From Hydrogenimonas cancrithermarum (GTDB lineage Bacteria; Campylobacterota; Campylobacteria; Campylobacterales; Hydrogenimonadaceae), in assembly GCF_030296055.1 (NCBI RefSeq), contig NZ_AP027370.1:1600501-1664500 (forward strand): DNA of 64,000 nucleotides, written 5' to 3'. Shown piece after piece: positions 1,149 through 64,000 of this stretch (within the stretch, counting starts at the first letter, position 1; each line of letters begins with the position of its first letter). The translations under genes were made by a program, and so were the position numbers. The notes below the pieces were generated by a model that did no database searches, was not told the origin of the DNA, and saw only the letters and a list, made by a program, of their open reading frames with translations.

Positions 1149-1853
1149 GTGGATAAACTTTCGAAACTTGTCGAGATGTTCAGGCTGCAGCAGCGGCTTA
1201 ACGACGATACCAACGGCCCGAAGTGGCGCGAAGGCGTGACGAAACAGGGCAAGGTGATCAACTGGAAGCGATGCATCGTGATGGAGACGGCGGAGCTCGT
1301 CGACAGTTTCAGCTGGAAGCATTGGAAAAACATCGCCGGCGGTATCGACCTGGAAAACATCAAGATCGAGATGGTCGACATCTGGCACTTCGTCATGAGC
1401 TACATTTTACGCTTTCATACCCCCGAAGAGGCGGCGAAACTGGCGTTCTCTACGATGAAGGTGAGCCAAATAAAACTGCCGAAAGCGTGGAGTGAAGCGG
1501 ACAATGCGCGTCTGGAAGCGCTGCTGGAGCCATTCGAAAACCTGATGGCGATGGCACTCGTAAAAACCGACGACGAGGTCTACCAGGAAGAGCTGCTGGA
1601 GCAGTTCTGGGAGTGTGTCGACGCCGTGGGGATGAGTTTCGACGAACTCTACCGTCTCTACATCGGCAAAAACGCTCTCAACCAGTTCAGGCAACGGCAC
1701 GGCTACAAAGAGGGCACTTACGTCAAAGTCTGGAATGGCAAAGAGGACAACGTCGTCATGCAGGAGATCCTCGCCGCAAATCCCGACATCACTTACGACG
1801 CTCTTCTCGCCGCACTGGAGAAGGCGTACGAAAAAGTGAGAAGTGAGAAGTGA
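1149..1853 (+). CDS. dut: Dimeric dUTPase (MazG-like all-alpha NTP pyrophosphohydrolase)
   Basis: Hydrolyses dUTP to dUMP and pyrophosphate, keeping uracil out of DNA. The 234-residue product has the dimeric, all-alpha dUTPase motifs rather than those of the trimeric enzyme: ETAELVDSFSWKHWK around residues 43-57 and EMVDIWHF around 74-81, which supply the acidic Mg-binding side chains. This is the C. jejuni-type enzyme. GAGGAG at 1135-1140 lies eight bases before the GTG at 1149, so I prefer that start to the in-frame GTG at 1140. The last codons (VRSEK) are encoded by a GTGAGAA tandem repeat, and the stop overlaps the murG start by four bases. Confidence 0.88.
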   Translation: MDKLSKLVEMFRLQQRLNDDTNGPKWREGVTKQGKVINWKRCIVMETAELVDSFSWKHWKNIAGGIDLENIKIEMVDIWHFVMSYILRFHTPEEAAKLAFSTMKVSQIKLPKAWSEADNARLEALLEPFENLMAMALVKTDDEVYQEELLEQFWECVDAVGMSFDELYRLYIGKNALNQFRQRHGYKEGTYVKVWNGKEDNVVMQEILAANPDITYDALLAALEKAYEKVRSEK

Positions 1854-1863
1854 GAAGTGAGAA
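1836..1863 (+). repeat. Heptanucleotide tandem repeat, four perfect GTGAGAA units
   Basis: Four perfect head-to-tail units of GTGAGAA span the dut/murG junction. The third unit contains both the GTG start of murG (1850) and the TGA stop of dut (1851-1853). Because 7 is not a multiple of 3, the repeat reads as VRSEK at the end of one protein and MRSEK at the start of the next. The same motif recurs near 26.0 kb and 63.8 kb. Confidence 0.9.
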
Positions 1864-2890
1864 GCCGAAACCATCCAAAATTCTTTTGACCGGAGGAGGA
1901 ACCGGCGGGCATCTGGCCATTGTCCGGTCGGTCAAAGAGGAGCTGCTCAGGCGAGGCATTCGTCCTTGTTACATCGGCTCCGAGAGCGGGCAGGACAGGG
2001 CGTGGTTCGGTGAAGACGCAGATTTCGAAGCGAAACGCTTTCTCCCCACACGCGGCGTTGTGAACCAAAGAGGCTTCGGAAAGCTCGCTTCGATGGCACA
2101 GGTGTTCAAAGCGACGCTGCAGGCGCGCCGCTTCATAAAAGCGCACGGCATCGAAGCGGTATTGAGCGTCGGCGGTTTCTCCGCCGCTCCCGCATCGTTC
2201 GCTGCCATTCTTACCGGCACGCCGCTTTTTATCCACGAACAAAACGCCGTCAGCGGCCGCCTCAACCGCATTCTCGAACCCTTCGCCAAACGCTTCTTCT
2301 CCTCCTACGGCGACGACCGCATCGACTACCCCGTCGGCGAAATTTTCTTCCAAACCGCCCGTCTCCGAACGGAGGTCGAAACCGTCATCTTCCTCGGTGG
2401 CAGCCAGGGCGCCAAAGCGATCAACGATTTCGCCCTCGAACTCGCTCCCGAACTGCGAAGACGCGGCATCCGCATCGTCCACCAGACCGGAAACCTCGAC
2501 TACGAGCGCATCAAAGGTGCTTACGAAGCGCTCGGCATCGAAGCCGACGTTTTCGCTTTCGACAAAGAACTCTACAAGCGGATCGCCCAAGCCGACTTCG
2601 CCGTCAGCCGTGCCGGCGCCAGTACCCTCTGGGAACTTGCCGCGAACAGGATTCCAACCCTTTTCGTTCCCTACCCCTATGCCGCAGGCGACCACCAGTA
2701 TCACAATGCCCGTTATATCGTTGAACGAAACGCCGGATGGATTGTGAGACAGAATGCGTTGAAATCGGATCTTTTTTGGGATATAATCGACAAAGAAAAT
2801 ATCGCCCCGGTCAGTGAAAAACTCGCAACGATGATCGGCCCCGACGGTGCCCGGAAGATCGTGGAGAGCATGCTGGCGGAGGGAAGATGA
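1850..2890 (+). CDS. murG: UDP-GlcNAc:lipid I N-acetylglucosamine transferase MurG
   Basis: GT28 glycosyltransferase that adds GlcNAc to lipid I to form lipid II on the inner face of the membrane. The 346-residue product has the N-terminal glycine-rich loop LTGGGTGGH near residue 13 and the C-terminal donor-site loop FLGGSQGAKAIN near 185. SRAGASTLWEL and the acceptor-side HEQNAVSG are also present. The GTG start at 1850 overlaps the dUTPase stop (GTGA), suggesting translational coupling. The first five residues (MRSEK) come from the GTGAGAA repeat and are not family sequence. No other start fits before the glycine loop. Confidence 0.93.
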   Translation: MRSEKPKPSKILLTGGGTGGHLAIVRSVKEELLRRGIRPCYIGSESGQDRAWFGEDADFEAKRFLPTRGVVNQRGFGKLASMAQVFKATLQARRFIKAHGIEAVLSVGGFSAAPASFAAILTGTPLFIHEQNAVSGRLNRILEPFAKRFFSSYGDDRIDYPVGEIFFQTARLRTEVETVIFLGGSQGAKAINDFALELAPELRRRGIRIVHQTGNLDYERIKGAYEALGIEADVFAFDKELYKRIAQADFAVSRAGASTLWELAANRIPTLFVPYPYAAGDHQYHNARYIVERNAGWIVRQNALKSDLFWDIIDKENIAPVSEKLATMIGPDGARKIVESMLAEGR

Positions 2891-25195: not shown

Positions 25196-26017
25196 TTAAA
25201 ATAGGGAGAGTTCCCGGTCGCGTCCTTTGAAGTGTGCCGCTTTGGTATAGCCGACCGACTTGGCGAAAGCCCGAATCTCCTCCTTTTTGAATCCGACCTG
25301 TTCCGGTGCGTGCGCATCCGACCCGAAGGTGATCGGGATGTCGCGTTCATACGCCATTTCGAGAAGTTGGCGGCTGGGGTAGGGTTCGCCGATCGGTTTG
25401 CGGTAGCCGGCGGCATTGATCTCGATGACCATGTCGGCTTTTTTGATCGCATCCATGGCGTTTTCGGCGATGAGGCGTACATCGGTTTTCGGGACATATT
25501 TGAAGACTTTGATCAGATCGAGGTGGCCGACGATGTCGAACTTCGCCTCTTTCGCCATCGCTTCGACCAGGTCGAAATAGTCCTGCCAGATGCCGTCGAT
25601 GTCGGCACCTTCGTATTTTCCGATAAATTCAGGATTGTCGAACCCCCATTTGTCGATGAAGTGGACCGACCCGATGAGGTAGTCGACATCGGCATGCAAC
25701 ACCCGTGCATCCATATGGCCCGGCAGATAGTCGACTTCGTATCCCAGTCTGATGTCGATCTGTCCGGCATATTTTCGACGTGCCGTTTTGACATCCTCTT
25801 CATACGCCTGCATCTCTTCGAACCCCATACGGTAGCGCGGATCGAAATCCATCGGTGCGTGATCGGAAAAACCGAAGATATCGATTTTCTCGGCGATCGC
25901 TTTTTCGATATAGTCGTCGATCGACCCCTCCGCATGATTACAGCGTGTCGTATGGTTGTGCAGATCGACCGTCACTTGCGACTTGCGGCTTGCGATTTGC
26001 GGCTCCTCACTTCTCAC
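25196..26017 (-). CDS. hisJ: PHP-domain histidinol phosphatase
   Basis: Metal-dependent phosphatase of the PHP superfamily. It probably dephosphorylates histidinol phosphate, though PHP phosphoesterases vary in substrate. The product is 273 residues from the GTG at 26017. Metal ligands are visible in DLHNHTTRCNHAEG, GFSDHAP, LGYEVDYLP, IGSVHF, DIVGHLDLIK and GSDAHAPEQVG. The first 14 residues (MRSEEPQIASRKSQ) come from heptamer repeats; the family sequence begins at VTVDLHNHT, where a second GTG (25975) lacks an SD. The GTG at 26017 has GAGGAG six bases upstream and overlaps the previous stop (GTGA). Confidence 0.85.
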   Translation of the reverse strand: MRSEEPQIASRKSQVTVDLHNHTTRCNHAEGSIDDYIEKAIAEKIDIFGFSDHAPMDFDPRYRMGFEEMQAYEEDVKTARRKYAGQIDIRLGYEVDYLPGHMDARVLHADVDYLIGSVHFIDKWGFDNPEFIGKYEGADIDGIWQDYFDLVEAMAKEAKFDIVGHLDLIKVFKYVPKTDVRLIAENAMDAIKKADMVIEINAAGYRKPIGEPYPSRQLLEMAYERDIPITFGSDAHAPEQVGFKKEEIRAFAKSVGYTKAAHFKGRDRELSLF

Positions 26018-26029
26018 TTCCCACTCCTC
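25974..26029 (-). repeat. Eight tandem heptamers (GAGAAGT and CGCAAGT types) at the cvfB/hisJ junction
   Basis: On the minus strand the 56 bases divide exactly into GAGGAGT, GGGAAGT, GAGAAGT, GAGGAGC, CGCAAAT, CGCAAGC, CGCAAGT and CGCAAGT. The block holds an SD (GAGGAG, 26024-26029), the hisJ GTG start, the TGA stop of the upstream gene and 13 hisJ codons. The first three and a half heptamers match 63778-63803 closely. Confidence 0.9.
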
Positions 26030-26868
26030 GTTTTGAGAAACGTTCCGTTCTCTTTCACTTCGATTTTCCCCGTCTCGATCAGTTTCGTCAATGCCCGTTT
26101 GAAATTTTTCCGGCTCAGCCCCAGCAGCGCTTTGATCCGCTCCGGATCGCTCTTGTAGTTGAGCGGCATCATCCCTTTGTGATCGTTCAGGTAGGCCAAT
26201 ACCTTTTCGGCCGCCAGCGTATCGCTCTTTTTTCCGATTGGGCGGAGCAGGATGTCGATTTTGCCGTCATCACGAACGATCTTCACGTAACCTTTCGTCC
26301 TCTTGCCGATTTCGATCGGTTCGAAGACTTCGGAATGGAACACGAGACCGTCATACTTTCTGTCGACCACCACTTTGTAGCCGAGGTCGGTTTTGGCGTA
26401 GACGAAGAGTTCAACCTCCTGATTGCGTTTGAGATCTTTCGGAGAGCGTTCCAGCACTCTGTCGAACTTCTGCGTGCCGACCAGCCGATGTGTTCTCTCG
26501 TCATAGGCGACATAGATCAGGTGGCGCTCCCCTTTTCGCATCGGTTCGCGCTGAAACATTTTCGGTACGAAGAGGTCTTTGGGAAGCCCCCAGTCGACGA
26601 AAGCCCCGTGCTGTGTCGTATCGACCACTTCCATTTCGGCCAGTTCCCCGAGCATCGCTTTGGGGCGCTCCGTCGTCGCAACGATGCGGTCTTCGCTGTC
26701 GGTGTAGACGAAAACGTCGAGTTCGTCACCTACCTTCATCGATTCGGTGACGTAGGCCTTCGGCAGTAGTACCTCCTTCTCCTTTTCGGAGGCGAGCACG
26801 AGCCCGTGGTCCGTTTCGCGTGCCACTTTCAATCGGTTGATTTTTCCAAGTTCCAGATATTCATTCAT
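26014..26868 (-). CDS. CvfB/YitL-type S1-domain RNA-binding protein
   Basis: Three S1-like RNA-binding domains followed by a winged helix, the CvfB layout; in staphylococci CvfB affects virulence gene expression. The product is 284 residues from the ATG at 26868 (MNEYLELGKINRLKVARET). S1-type segments include LGELAEMEVVDTTQHGAFVDWGLPKDLFVP and RTKGYVKIVRDDGKIDILLRP, and the winged helix begins near LSRKNFKRALTKLIETG. Its last codons (TRSGK) run into the heptamer repeat. The longer upstream frame is antisense to the RND gene and rejected. Confidence 0.83.
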   Translation of the reverse strand: MNEYLELGKINRLKVARETDHGLVLASEKEKEVLLPKAYVTESMKVGDELDVFVYTDSEDRIVATTERPKAMLGELAEMEVVDTTQHGAFVDWGLPKDLFVPKMFQREPMRKGERHLIYVAYDERTHRLVGTQKFDRVLERSPKDLKRNQEVELFVYAKTDLGYKVVVDRKYDGLVFHSEVFEPIEIGKRTKGYVKIVRDDGKIDILLRPIGKKSDTLAAEKVLAYLNDHKGMMPLNYKSDPERIKALLGLSRKNFKRALTKLIETGKIEVKENGTFLKTRSGK

Positions 26869-57035: not shown

Positions 57036-58268
57036 TCAGTCGGGTTCGACGATACCGGTAATCGGCCCGTTGGTGGCGTGAAAAATCGTCGTGCCGTGGC
57101 GGTCGGCCTGTAGTTGGAGAAGCAGCCGCTGGAGTGTCGGTTCGATCGAAGGGATGAACCATGCGTTGTTGCTGATGGCGACCATGTATTTGGGATTTCC
57201 CTCGAAAAGCCGGTCGCAGGTCGCCTCGTAGCAGATGGCGTTGCGCCAGGTGTGGCCGAGCATCTCGAAATCACTCGGTTTTTCGGCAGTCGTATAGTCG
57301 CTCGCCCCTTCGAAGAATAGGTCGTTGATCCAGTGCCCGAGCCATTTGGGAAGCGGAACCGCTTCGCCAAATGGAACGAGGACCACTTTGTGCATGATGC
57401 GTAGATCGCCGTATTGGAAAAGGTAGGTGGAGTTGTAGGATTTCCCCTTCTGGGCGTAGAGGGCACCGGTGACGATCGTAATGTCGTGGCTGAGTTCCAT
57501 CAGGGTCTGCATCAGTTCGATGTCGTGGTTCAAAAAGAGAGGAAAAGCGCTTTCGGGCAGGATGACGGCCCCCTTTTTTTCAGCGATCGCGTTTCGGATC
57601 GCCTGGAGGTTGAGCTCGACGATCGGCCGACGGTAGCGCGGGTCCCACTTTTTGGCCTGGTCGATATTCGTTTGGACCAGTTGGATCCGCTGTTCCAGCT
57701 GATGACGATGCGTGGTGGACGATGGATGATGAATGGCGAAGAGAAACAGTGCCGGCACGGCGTAACGGGCTTTGTGTTTCATCGGAATGAAGAGGGCGAG
57801 GGTAGCGAGAACGATCCAGAGCTGCCAGAGGTGGTCGCCGAGGATGGAGCCGGTGAACATCAGGGCGGGGCGGAACCAGTCGAAACCGAAAGGGTGCAGA
57901 TACTCGACGAGGCCGAAGGCGGCAGCACGCGGCACGATGTGCCCAAGCGCCGCGATGAGCCGGAAAATGAAACCGTAGCAAAGGGCGATGCCCAGAACGA
58001 CGAAGGGAATCATCCAGCTCAGGTCGTAGTAGCGGAAGCTCAGTCCGATCCAGTGGAACCAGAGCGTGGCGGTAAAAAATCCGCTCCAAAACATCGCGCG
58101 CGGCGGAAGCGTCAGCCAGAACCAGAGCGCGCCGATGCCGAGAAAGGCCTGAAACCACGGCAGATGCAGGCCGAAATGGTGCAAATAGATGAAGGCGGAG
58201 GCACAAAGTGCGGAAAGAAAGCCTAAACTAATCACAGGAGTGCTAAAATAGTGCTTCAAATTTTTCAT
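57036..58268 (-). CDS. lnt: Apolipoprotein N-acyltransferase
   Basis: Inner-membrane enzyme that adds the third acyl chain to lipoproteins. The product is 410 residues, with at least six N-terminal helices and then a periplasmic nitrilase domain. The Glu-Lys-Cys triad is visible in LPESAFP, MHKVVLVPFGE and ICYEAT. Between the last helix and the nitrilase domain is AIHHPSSTTHRHQ, encoded by heptamer repeats. ATG 58268 is used; it has no good SD and lies 16 bases from the divergent yajC ATG. Shorter than E. coli Lnt. Confidence 0.92.
   Translation of the reverse strand: MKNLKHYFSTPVISLGFLSALCASAFIYLHHFGLHLPWFQAFLGIGALWFWLTLPPRAMFWSGFFTATLWFHWIGLSFRYYDLSWMIPFVVLGIALCYGFIFRLIAALGHIVPRAAAFGLVEYLHPFGFDWFRPALMFTGSILGDHLWQLWIVLATLALFIPMKHKARYAVPALFLFAIHHPSSTTHRHQLEQRIQLVQTNIDQAKKWDPRYRRPIVELNLQAIRNAIAEKKGAVILPESAFPLFLNHDIELMQTLMELSHDITIVTGALYAQKGKSYNSTYLFQYGDLRIMHKVVLVPFGEAVPLPKWLGHWINDLFFEGASDYTTAEKPSDFEMLGHTWRNAICYEATCDRLFEGNPKYMVAISNNAWFIPSIEPTLQRLLLQLQADRHGTTIFHATNGPITGIVEPD
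57701..57735. repeat. Five degenerate heptamers (ATGGATG family) inside lnt
   Basis: Reads as GATGACG, ATGCGTG, GTGGACG, ATGGATG, ATGAATG on the plus strand. It is in frame with Lnt and encodes HHPSSTTHRH. The family is the same as the repeat in the lptE signal peptide and the short run at 61263-61276. Confidence 0.75.
58244..58249 (+). promoter_or_regulatory. Probable yajC -10 box (TAAAAT) inside the lnt start region
   Basis: GCTAAAATAGTG lies 36 bases before the yajC ATG. With only 16 bases between the divergent yajC and lnt starts, the yajCDF promoter must overlap the beginning of the lnt coding sequence. Confidence 0.45.
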
Positions 58269-58284
58269 GGCAAAAGGATAGTGT

Positions 58285-58569
58285 ATGAATGGTGCTGAAC
58301 AGGGCAATATGCTGGCTTCATTGTTTCCGCTTCTCGTATTGTTCGCGATCTTCTATTTCCTGGTGATCCGTCCGCAGCAAAAGCAGGCGAAAAAGCACAA
58401 AGAGATGGTGGCATCGCTCAAAAAAGGTGACAAAGTCGTTACCACAGGCGGCTTGATGGCCGAAGTGGTCAAACCCGAAGAGGATTTTATCAAAGTCAAG
58501 CTTAACGACGATACGATCGTCAAACTCGTTCCCGATGCCGTAGCGAGAAAGATCGAGGATGAAGCTTAA
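58285..58569 (+). CDS. yajC: Sec translocase accessory protein YajC
   Basis: Single-pass membrane subunit of SecDF-YajC, 94 residues. N-terminal helix [25 protein letters not shown], then a small cytoplasmic domain ([17 protein letters not shown]). Divergent from lnt and overlapping secD by 11 bases. Confidence 0.95.
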
Positions 58570-61251: not shown

Positions 61252-61262
61252 GACGCAAGAGG

Positions 61263-61276
61263 ATGGATGATGGATG
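61263..61276. repeat. Two ATGGATG heptamers between secF and leuS
   Basis: Two perfect ATGGATG units follow the secF hairpin, in the 101-base secF-leuS gap. Same family as the repeats in lnt and lptE. Confidence 0.7.
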
Positions 61277-63770: not shown

Positions 63771-63805
63771 CTTGCGTGAGGAGTGGGAAGTGAGAAGTGA
63801 GAAGT
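63771..63805 (+). repeat. GAGAAGT-type heptamers between leuS and lptE
   Basis: Five heptamers: CTTGCGT, GAGGAGT, GGGAAGT, GAGAAGT, GAGAAGT. Bases 63778-63801 are identical to the block before hisJ (minus strand, 26029-26006). They supply the SD (GAGGAG, 63778-63783) and the GTG start at 63790. Confidence 0.9.
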
Positions 63806-64000
63806 TGAGAAAGGGTCGGCGCCGGACATGGACGCTTCTCCTTCTTTCATCCATCATCCATCATCCGTCATCCATCATCGCGCTCTCCGCGACAGCGCTT
63901 GCCGGTTGCGGCTACAAACCGATGACGGCCTATACCAAAAAGGTATTCACCGACAAGATCTTCACCGAGGTCGAAGTCTATCTTCGCGACCCCGAAAACG
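63790..64000 (+). CDS. lptE: LptE-like LPS-assembly lipoprotein, 3' end beyond window
   Basis: Outer-membrane lipoprotein that plugs LptD in LPS export. 70 residues are visible and the frame is open at the window end. The signal peptide is unusual: basic MRSEKLRKGRRRT (first part from GAGAAGT repeats), then TLLLLSSIIHHPSSIIALSA, in which SSIIHHPSSII is encoded by ATCATCC heptamers. The lipobox is ALAGC, followed by GYKPMTAY typical of LptE. GTG 63790 has GAGGAG six bases upstream; TTG 63805 is the only other in-frame candidate. The position after leuS matches the C. jejuni lipoprotein gene as I recall. Confidence 0.75.
   Translation, partial: MRSEKLRKGRRRTWTLLLLSSIIHHPSSIIALSATALAGCGYKPMTAYTKKVFTDKIFTEVEVYLRDPEN
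63846..63880 (+). repeat. Five ATCATCC-type heptamers inside the lptE signal peptide
   Basis: TTCATCC, ATCATCC, ATCATCC, GTCATCC, ATCATCG, in frame with lptE and encoding the middle of its hydrophobic core (SSIIHHPSSII). On the other strand this is the GGATGAT family seen at 57701-57735 and 61263-61276. Confidence 0.88.

Follow-up and report, generated by a model that had tools for sequence, protein, structure and literature searches.

Heptanucleotide Arrays and a Peptide Common to Lnt and LptE in Hydrogenimonas cancrithermarum: Shared Sites with Different Units Across Species

Lnt, LptE, and the Arrays of the Locus

The window, meaning the whole stretch of 64,000 nucleotides analysed here, lies in a 2.31-Mb contig of the 2.38-Mb genome of Hydrogenimonas cancrithermarum. 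It carries the genes for apolipoprotein N-acyltransferase (Lnt) and the lipoprotein LptE, each of which contains tandem units of 7 bp (Table 1). Lnt matches the solved Lnt structures 5n6m, 5n6h, and 5vrg in phmmer searches (E 2.7e-12 to 8e-9); its identification rests on these structures, a Pfam search of the protein having returned no match. Residues E232, K287, and C339, which we take to be the Lnt triad, are invariant in 26 Lnts. In an AlphaFold model (26 sequences, mean pLDDT 87.7), residues 173-177 fall within a coil spanning 172-182 (block pLDDT 65), which is placed between helix 159-171 and a helix/strand at 183-190, ahead of the nitrilase domain. The phmmer alignment to solved Lnt begins at residue 179, in agreement with this placement. 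An earlier note on this DNA had put the array between the last N-terminal helix and the nitrilase domain, and the model places it there.

The start of LptE lies at or after position 63772 (+), and two arrays of opposite composition occupy its 5′ end. Should translation begin at the first TTG, the G-rich arm is read in the LptE frame (REEWEVRSEKL); the peptide EEWEVRSE recurs in a PHP-domain protein of the window. The C-rich arm is translated as LLLLSSIIHHPSSIIALSATALAGC / SSIIHHPSSIIA, directly before the lipobox ALAGC.

Table 1. Coordinates of arrays and associated features, and the units found at five coding sites. Positions are those of the window unless prefixed by a locus (L); G numbers denote genomes of relatives.
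Feature	Position	Strand	Remarks
Perfect AAGTGAG array	1827..1872	+	4.4 copies
Heptamer arrays, N-terminus of PHP-domain protein	25971..26030	-	EEWEVRSEEPQIASRKSQV
Lnt ORF (apolipoprotein N-acyltransferase)	57036..58307	-	start codon uncertain; analysed as 57036-58247
Degenerate CATCCAT heptamer array, Lnt linker	57701..57735	-	period-7 matches; coil in model
HHPSS codons in Lnt	57717-57731	-	residues 173-177
Two ATGGATG units	61262..61276	+	secF-leuS spacer
LptE lipoprotein ORF	63772..64000, past window end to about 64359	+	Pfam PF04390, E 1.7e-6; lipobox ALAGC
LptE G-rich arm, GTGAGAA-type array	63773..63810	+	immediately 3′ of leuS stop
LptE C-rich arm, (TCATCCA)4.7	63838..63883	+	encodes part of signal peptide
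HHPSS codons in LptE	63859-63873	+	inside C-rich arm
RmlB with two heptamer-encoded insertions	L194:17418-18560		LNTQHSAPSTQHSTLK and NNSKVKSQKSKVKSYKE
G007 element examples	L202:11190-11500; L207:19430-19730; L173:14020-14300		
Lnt linker units			own CATCCAT; G009 ATTCAAC; G003 CATCGGC (21/21); G007 CCAATGA
LptE units			own TCATCCA; G003 CTCTTCA; G007 ACTTCTC; G008 and G016 GTTCACT; G009 ATTCAAC
Mfd loop units			own AAAATCC; G007 GGGAATC; G016 AAATCGG-like
DnaX linker units			own and G004 TGGAGAA-like; G007 GTGAACA
MurI N-terminus units			own ATTCTCC; G017 CATCCAT

Encoding of the Shared Peptide

The peptide HHPSS is encoded in both Lnt and LptE by CATCCAT-type heptamers in identical coding orientation. 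On the Lnt coding strand the array reads as the successive heptamers CATTCAT, CATCCAT, CGTCCAC, and CACGCAT, with 15/21 matches at period 7, and the translation of the ORF around it is LFAIHHPSSTTHRHQLEQ / AIHHPSSTTHRHQ; the (TCATCCA)n array of LptE reaches 19/21. Coordinates and periodicity thus confirm that the common peptide comes from heptamers of one kind. LptE had been described as carrying a complementary-strand version of the repeat, which is correct for the genome strand only: relative to the two genes the orientation is equal, and both proteins therefore carry one peptide.

Considered alone, the Lnt array is modestly improbable, and it becomes convincing once viewed beside the arrays of relatives. 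When the peptide is recoded synonymously, 0.64% of the recoded sequences equal its periodicity (P about 0.006). Of 3162 segments, each 90 bp long, 0.98% score 15/21 at period 7, compared with at most 0.06% at periods 5, 8, 10, 11, and 13. Sequences within two mismatches of ATGGATGATGGATG occur 7 times in the window vs. 0.59 expected. A genome scan for DNA encoding HHPSS (with TCN serines) gave 14 matches at 8 places, and a reversed control pattern gave 1.

A second, independent case argues that such peptides stem from a common heptamer and not from protein homology, as had been proposed: in G009, Lnt (SIQYSTFN) and LptE (FNIQHSTFN) are both encoded by ATTCAAC arrays. HHPSS itself appears again in MurI of G017, from a CATCCAT array. 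One might instead suppose that HHPSS is selected for a function as a His/Pro/Ser motif, for example in metal binding, with the DNA periodicity a by-product, and an H-x-P motif does occur at the linker point in 10/14 Lnts of the genus. Against this, synonymous recoding seldom attains the periodicity, LptE relatives carry unrelated peptides at the site, the signal peptide is removed, and the motif is missing from the Lnts of other families (alignment of 30 sequences). Selection of the peptide is therefore hardly credible; in all likelihood HHPSS does no harm and serves no further purpose.

The Lnt Linker Across the Genus

Lnt is present in 54/60 relatives searched and in 14/18 genomes of the genus, the present one included; Hydrogenimonas MAGs are the relatives with a name, and their Lnt is 68% identical. 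Within the genus the linker varies in length in the alignment, and its DNA shows period 7 in 4/14 genomes, with four units. Taken singly, these arrays are weak in the present genome (15/21), G009, and G007. The earlier note attributed the shared peptide to repeat insertion rather than homology. The second half of this claim stands, but a clean insertion in Lnt does not: the H-x-P motif is found in 7/10 of the array-less Lnts of the genus, so that relatives with no array share the initial half of the peptide. The segment is to this extent retained in genomes without the repeat, and, with a linker of variable length, simple insertion was discarded as a general account of Lnt. The unit of G003, CATCGGC, occurs nowhere else in the G003 genome, as if sequence already present at the site had been amplified.

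The LptE Signal Peptide

LptE homologues were found in 16/18 genomes of the genus, and 6/16 carry a signal-peptide array (at least 16/21), with five different units. In G003, G008, G009, and G016 an in-frame ATG upstream places the array within the translated signal peptide; in G007 and the present genome, translation of the array requires a GTG or TTG start. A tree of SecD, SecF, and LeuS has a split with 0.983 support, and every LptE or Lnt array belongs to a species on the same side of it, the LptE arrays amounting to 6/8 on that side and 0/6 on the other; the tree has no outgroup, leaves out the array-less G013 and G014, and resolves the branching order on the array-bearing side poorly, with a support of 0.2 near the present genome and G009. 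Judged from these sequences, a single origin followed by repeated unit replacement fits best, and the arrays may have arisen in this way.

Repeat-number phase variation is known in other systems, and the position of the LptE array between the candidate starts and the mature protein raises the prospect of a contingency locus, in which the number of heptamers would, by shifting the frame, switch or tune LptE and with it the assembly of the outer membrane. There is indeed an out-of-frame ORF from an ATG at about 63828, which would enter the frame on loss of one unit. Such switching, whether through the array as a whole or through this ATG, seems very improbable. The array is imperfect, which would reduce slippage, and is absent from 10/16 genomes; LptE and Lnt are normally essential; and the other genes affected (DnaX, Mfd, MurI) are housekeeping genes and not surface antigens.

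Further Arrays and Sites Shared Across Species

Beyond Lnt and LptE, arrays in the H. cancrithermarum genome encode parts of RmlB (two), MurI, Mfd, DnaX, a molybdopterin oxidoreductase, and the PHP-domain protein. Both RmlB arrays coincide with insertions relative to solved RmlB, and the MurI array is N-terminal, before the onset of homology at residue 18. G007 and G017 provide further examples of relatives with their own unit at such a place (Table 1): in the orthologues of Mfd, DnaX, and MurI the site is shared and the unit is mostly different, G004 DnaX being the exception, with the unit of the present genome. In intergenic DNA, G002 has a longer CATCCAT-type array in apparently the same secF-leuS spacer, the orthology of which is suggested by gene positions. 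With 55 distinct units among 98 arrays, a single universal heptamer is ruled out.

In a control over 30 genes, relatives carried an array in 11/43 comparisons at windows with an own array, vs. 16/1050 at indel windows without one and 2/5133 in gap-free windows; since the windows overlap, these counts are not independent, the 16 include two rows that are runs of N, and the 2/5133 count one leuS place twice. The same three classes gave 0/43, 2/1050, and 0/5133 at period 8. The earlier note overlooked the second LptE array, the sharing of sites between species with differing units, and these further proteins.

Several side observations concern the surroundings of arrays. For two further genes, at L250:9402-10895 and L250:12614-13648, orthologues in 3-4 relatives have arrays at one site with differing units, the own sequence being below threshold. 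The region 3′ of lptE (C1:1664000-1701000) is denser in arrays than the rest of the sample. A AAACCCTTGACAA-like stretch, which contains TTGACA and is related to the core of the G007 element described below, adjoins heptamer arrays at L179:15082-15255 and L186:14077 of the present genome and at L128:10048 of Nitratifractor; it is possibly a promoter or the core of a diverged element. An Rfam search over five array loci (100 kb) found no known RNA family.

Period 7, Abundance, and Constraint

Seven is the only over-represented repeat period, both here and in the other Campylobacterota sampled. In 231 kb of DNA from the genus there are 14 period-7 arrays (at least 18/21) vs. 2 for periods 4-6 and 8-13 combined, and in 932 kb from other Campylobacterota there are 40 vs. 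at most 4 for any single period among 4-6 and 8-13; period 14 scores as well because it is a multiple of 7. Both 7-bp tandem units and genome-wide dispersal are found, which places the arrays among heptanucleotide tandem repeats (STRR/SSR).

At a threshold of at least 16/21, the density in Hydrogenimonas is roughly 55-95 arrays per Mb. Among 83 arrays at this threshold (1.10 Mb, four genomes), 33 are coding, 10 mixed, and 40 intergenic; these counts, like those for the orientation of intergenic arrays below, are approximate because genes were called with a home-made program, and the 33/83 include the two LptE arrays twice from overlapping loci (31/81 otherwise). A count at 18/21, likewise approximate, gave 6 coding and 4 intergenic arrays of 13. 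Coding arrays extend to at most 60 bp and 15% are perfect, whereas intergenic arrays reach 160 bp and 40% are perfect (P = 0.009). Since 7 bp shifts the reading frame, expansion of an array inside a gene would be costly.

Unit Turnover and the G007 Element

Some units are dispersed in the genomes that use them. CCAATGA, the Lnt unit of G007, has 125 matches in that genome and 21 each in G003 and G008; ATTCAAC is dispersed in the present genome, G003, G009, and G013; and TCATCCA is present in 8/18 genomes. GTTCACT occurs in 5/18, in G008 only at lptE, and not in G016 at the same stringency. A genome-specific pool as the sole source of units is ruled out for G003 Lnt by its unique unit.

G007 also contains a dispersed element with a core of about 80 bp (24 hits, 23 of them strong) and, in most copies, heptamer arms on one or both sides. 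Its order is a terminator-like hairpin, (TTGGTCA/TTGGGCA)n, the core with CCCTTGACAA, and (TTCTCAC, TGCTCAC, or TACCCAC)n. Right arms of at least three units (13 arrays) are 100% uniform within and 30% identical between arrays, forming three classes. This indicates that arrays are homogenised as wholes. Arm class showed no link with core similarity (permutation P = 0.20), and its inheritance together with the core is thus unsupported.

The dispersal of CCAATGA and the many copies of the G007 core with its heptamer arms could suggest that mobile heptamer-bearing elements entered identical permissive sites of several species independently. This account is improbable: at E 0.01 the core has no match in the other 17 of 18 genomes of the genus and is missing from lnt and lptE in the sequences read, the Lnt arrays add no defined length, and the unit of G003 Lnt has no second location in its genome.

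With one genome compared per species, the arrays are specific to period 7, lie in coding sequence, share sites between species while differing in unit, and are homogeneous within. The reading we prefer, with a probability of about 0.8, is that the shared peptide is a translated heptamer array tolerated at unconstrained sites, where the site persists and the unit turns over. Arrays would arise by slippage or amplification, and those in genes would be tolerated only where the protein is unconstrained, as in a signal peptide, linker, surface loop, or N-terminus. From one species to the next the site would then be kept and every unit of the array exchanged for another heptamer, each species translating its own heptamer there, and two genes of one genome with the same heptamer would encode the same peptide. 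Replication slippage or unequal exchange may homogenise the arrays, and some units may be acquired by exchange with arrays dispersed elsewhere in that genome; supply from such a pool does not hold for the G003 Lnt unit.

Orientation of Neighbouring Arrays

Arrays tend to have neighbours within 150 bp: Hydrogenimonas has 18 cases vs. 1.1 expected, and other families have 11 vs. 0.6. Where two neighbours lie on opposite strands, the order is G-rich then C-rich in 23/23 pairs from two data sets, the LptE pair included, and the reverse order is never seen; the 23 include three copies of the G007 element, and two contigs account for eight. The units on the two sides are usually different. In Hydrogenimonas, intergenic arrays obey this rule with respect to the genes on either side (39/47, P = 5e-6); in other families it is less clear, the count of 17/24 not being significant (P = 0.06; left-C 6 vs. 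left-G 5).

This fixed order is a sharp clue to how arrays form. One unlikely possibility is that arrays are footprints of directional end extension, wherein both 3′ ends of a break would be given C-poor heptamers and then joined. The G-rich strands of all 23 pairs run 3′ toward the spacer, and such a process would resemble head-to-head telomere fusion. An RVT_1 reverse transcriptase is present only in G004 and G007 and was found in none of the other 16/18 genomes of the genus, including the present one. A telomerase-like reverse transcriptase is therefore rejected as the common source, and the end-extending enzyme would be an ordinary polymerase or something unknown. If end extension were true, repaired breaks would be the source of protein segments like the LptE signal peptide.

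Relation to Known Repeats

Rickettsia palindromic elements are long palindromes inserted in frame into unrelated proteins at permissive sites. They are alike in that repeat DNA is translated as extra segments of unrelated proteins, but the Lnt and LptE arrays consist of tandem 7-mers and contain no palindrome of such length. The G007 element is similar to MITE/REP-type elements in its repeated core of about 80 bp, its hairpins, and its 23 strong copies, and differs in its arms: these consist of heptamer arrays, and their unit changes without regard to the core.

The heptanucleotide SSRs or STRRs of Calothrix, Xanthomonas (GGGAATC), and Beggiatoaceae (TAACTGA) are likewise 7-bp tandem repeats, dispersed, variable in number, and mainly intergenic, with length and sequence that differ between species. 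In Xanthomonas, the G-rich strand of GGGAATC repeats is reported to be the sense strand close to stop codons and the antisense strand where repeats lie upstream of ORFs (PMC4692102), an orientation that matches the Hydrogenimonas arrays. The same paper gives 7-11% of Xanthomonas heptamer repeats as at least partly overlapping ORFs (PMC4692102), whereas about 40% of the Hydrogenimonas arrays sampled (33/83) lie in predicted genes. Also unlike the known heptanucleotide repeats are the number of distinct units (55/98) and the coding sites common to species with different units. The main Lnt and LptE units have at most GG, short of the run of at least three G per unit expected of a G-quadruplex heptamer, and a Xanthomonas-type G4 is ruled out for them; G007 Mfd does carry GGGAATC.

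A search of the openly accessible literature found no report on Hydrogenimonas tandem repeats, on heptanucleotide repeats that encode protein or signal peptides, or on heptamers in Epsilonproteobacteria. The kind of repeat is known; for this group, the search found no published account of its coding use at shared sites, the turnover of units across whole arrays, or the strict orientation of pairs.

Implications

Translated arrays provide a route for core proteins to gain peptide segments without homology, in which the site persists and the sequence is replaced species by species. Signal peptides and linkers are then, in part, what DNA repair or replication has made. Motif searches and the inference of homology are misled when one peptide occurs in Lnt, LptE, and the MurI of a relative. 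Finally, these genomes are a compact natural system in which to study why bacteria favour repeats of 7 bp over those of 6 or 8.
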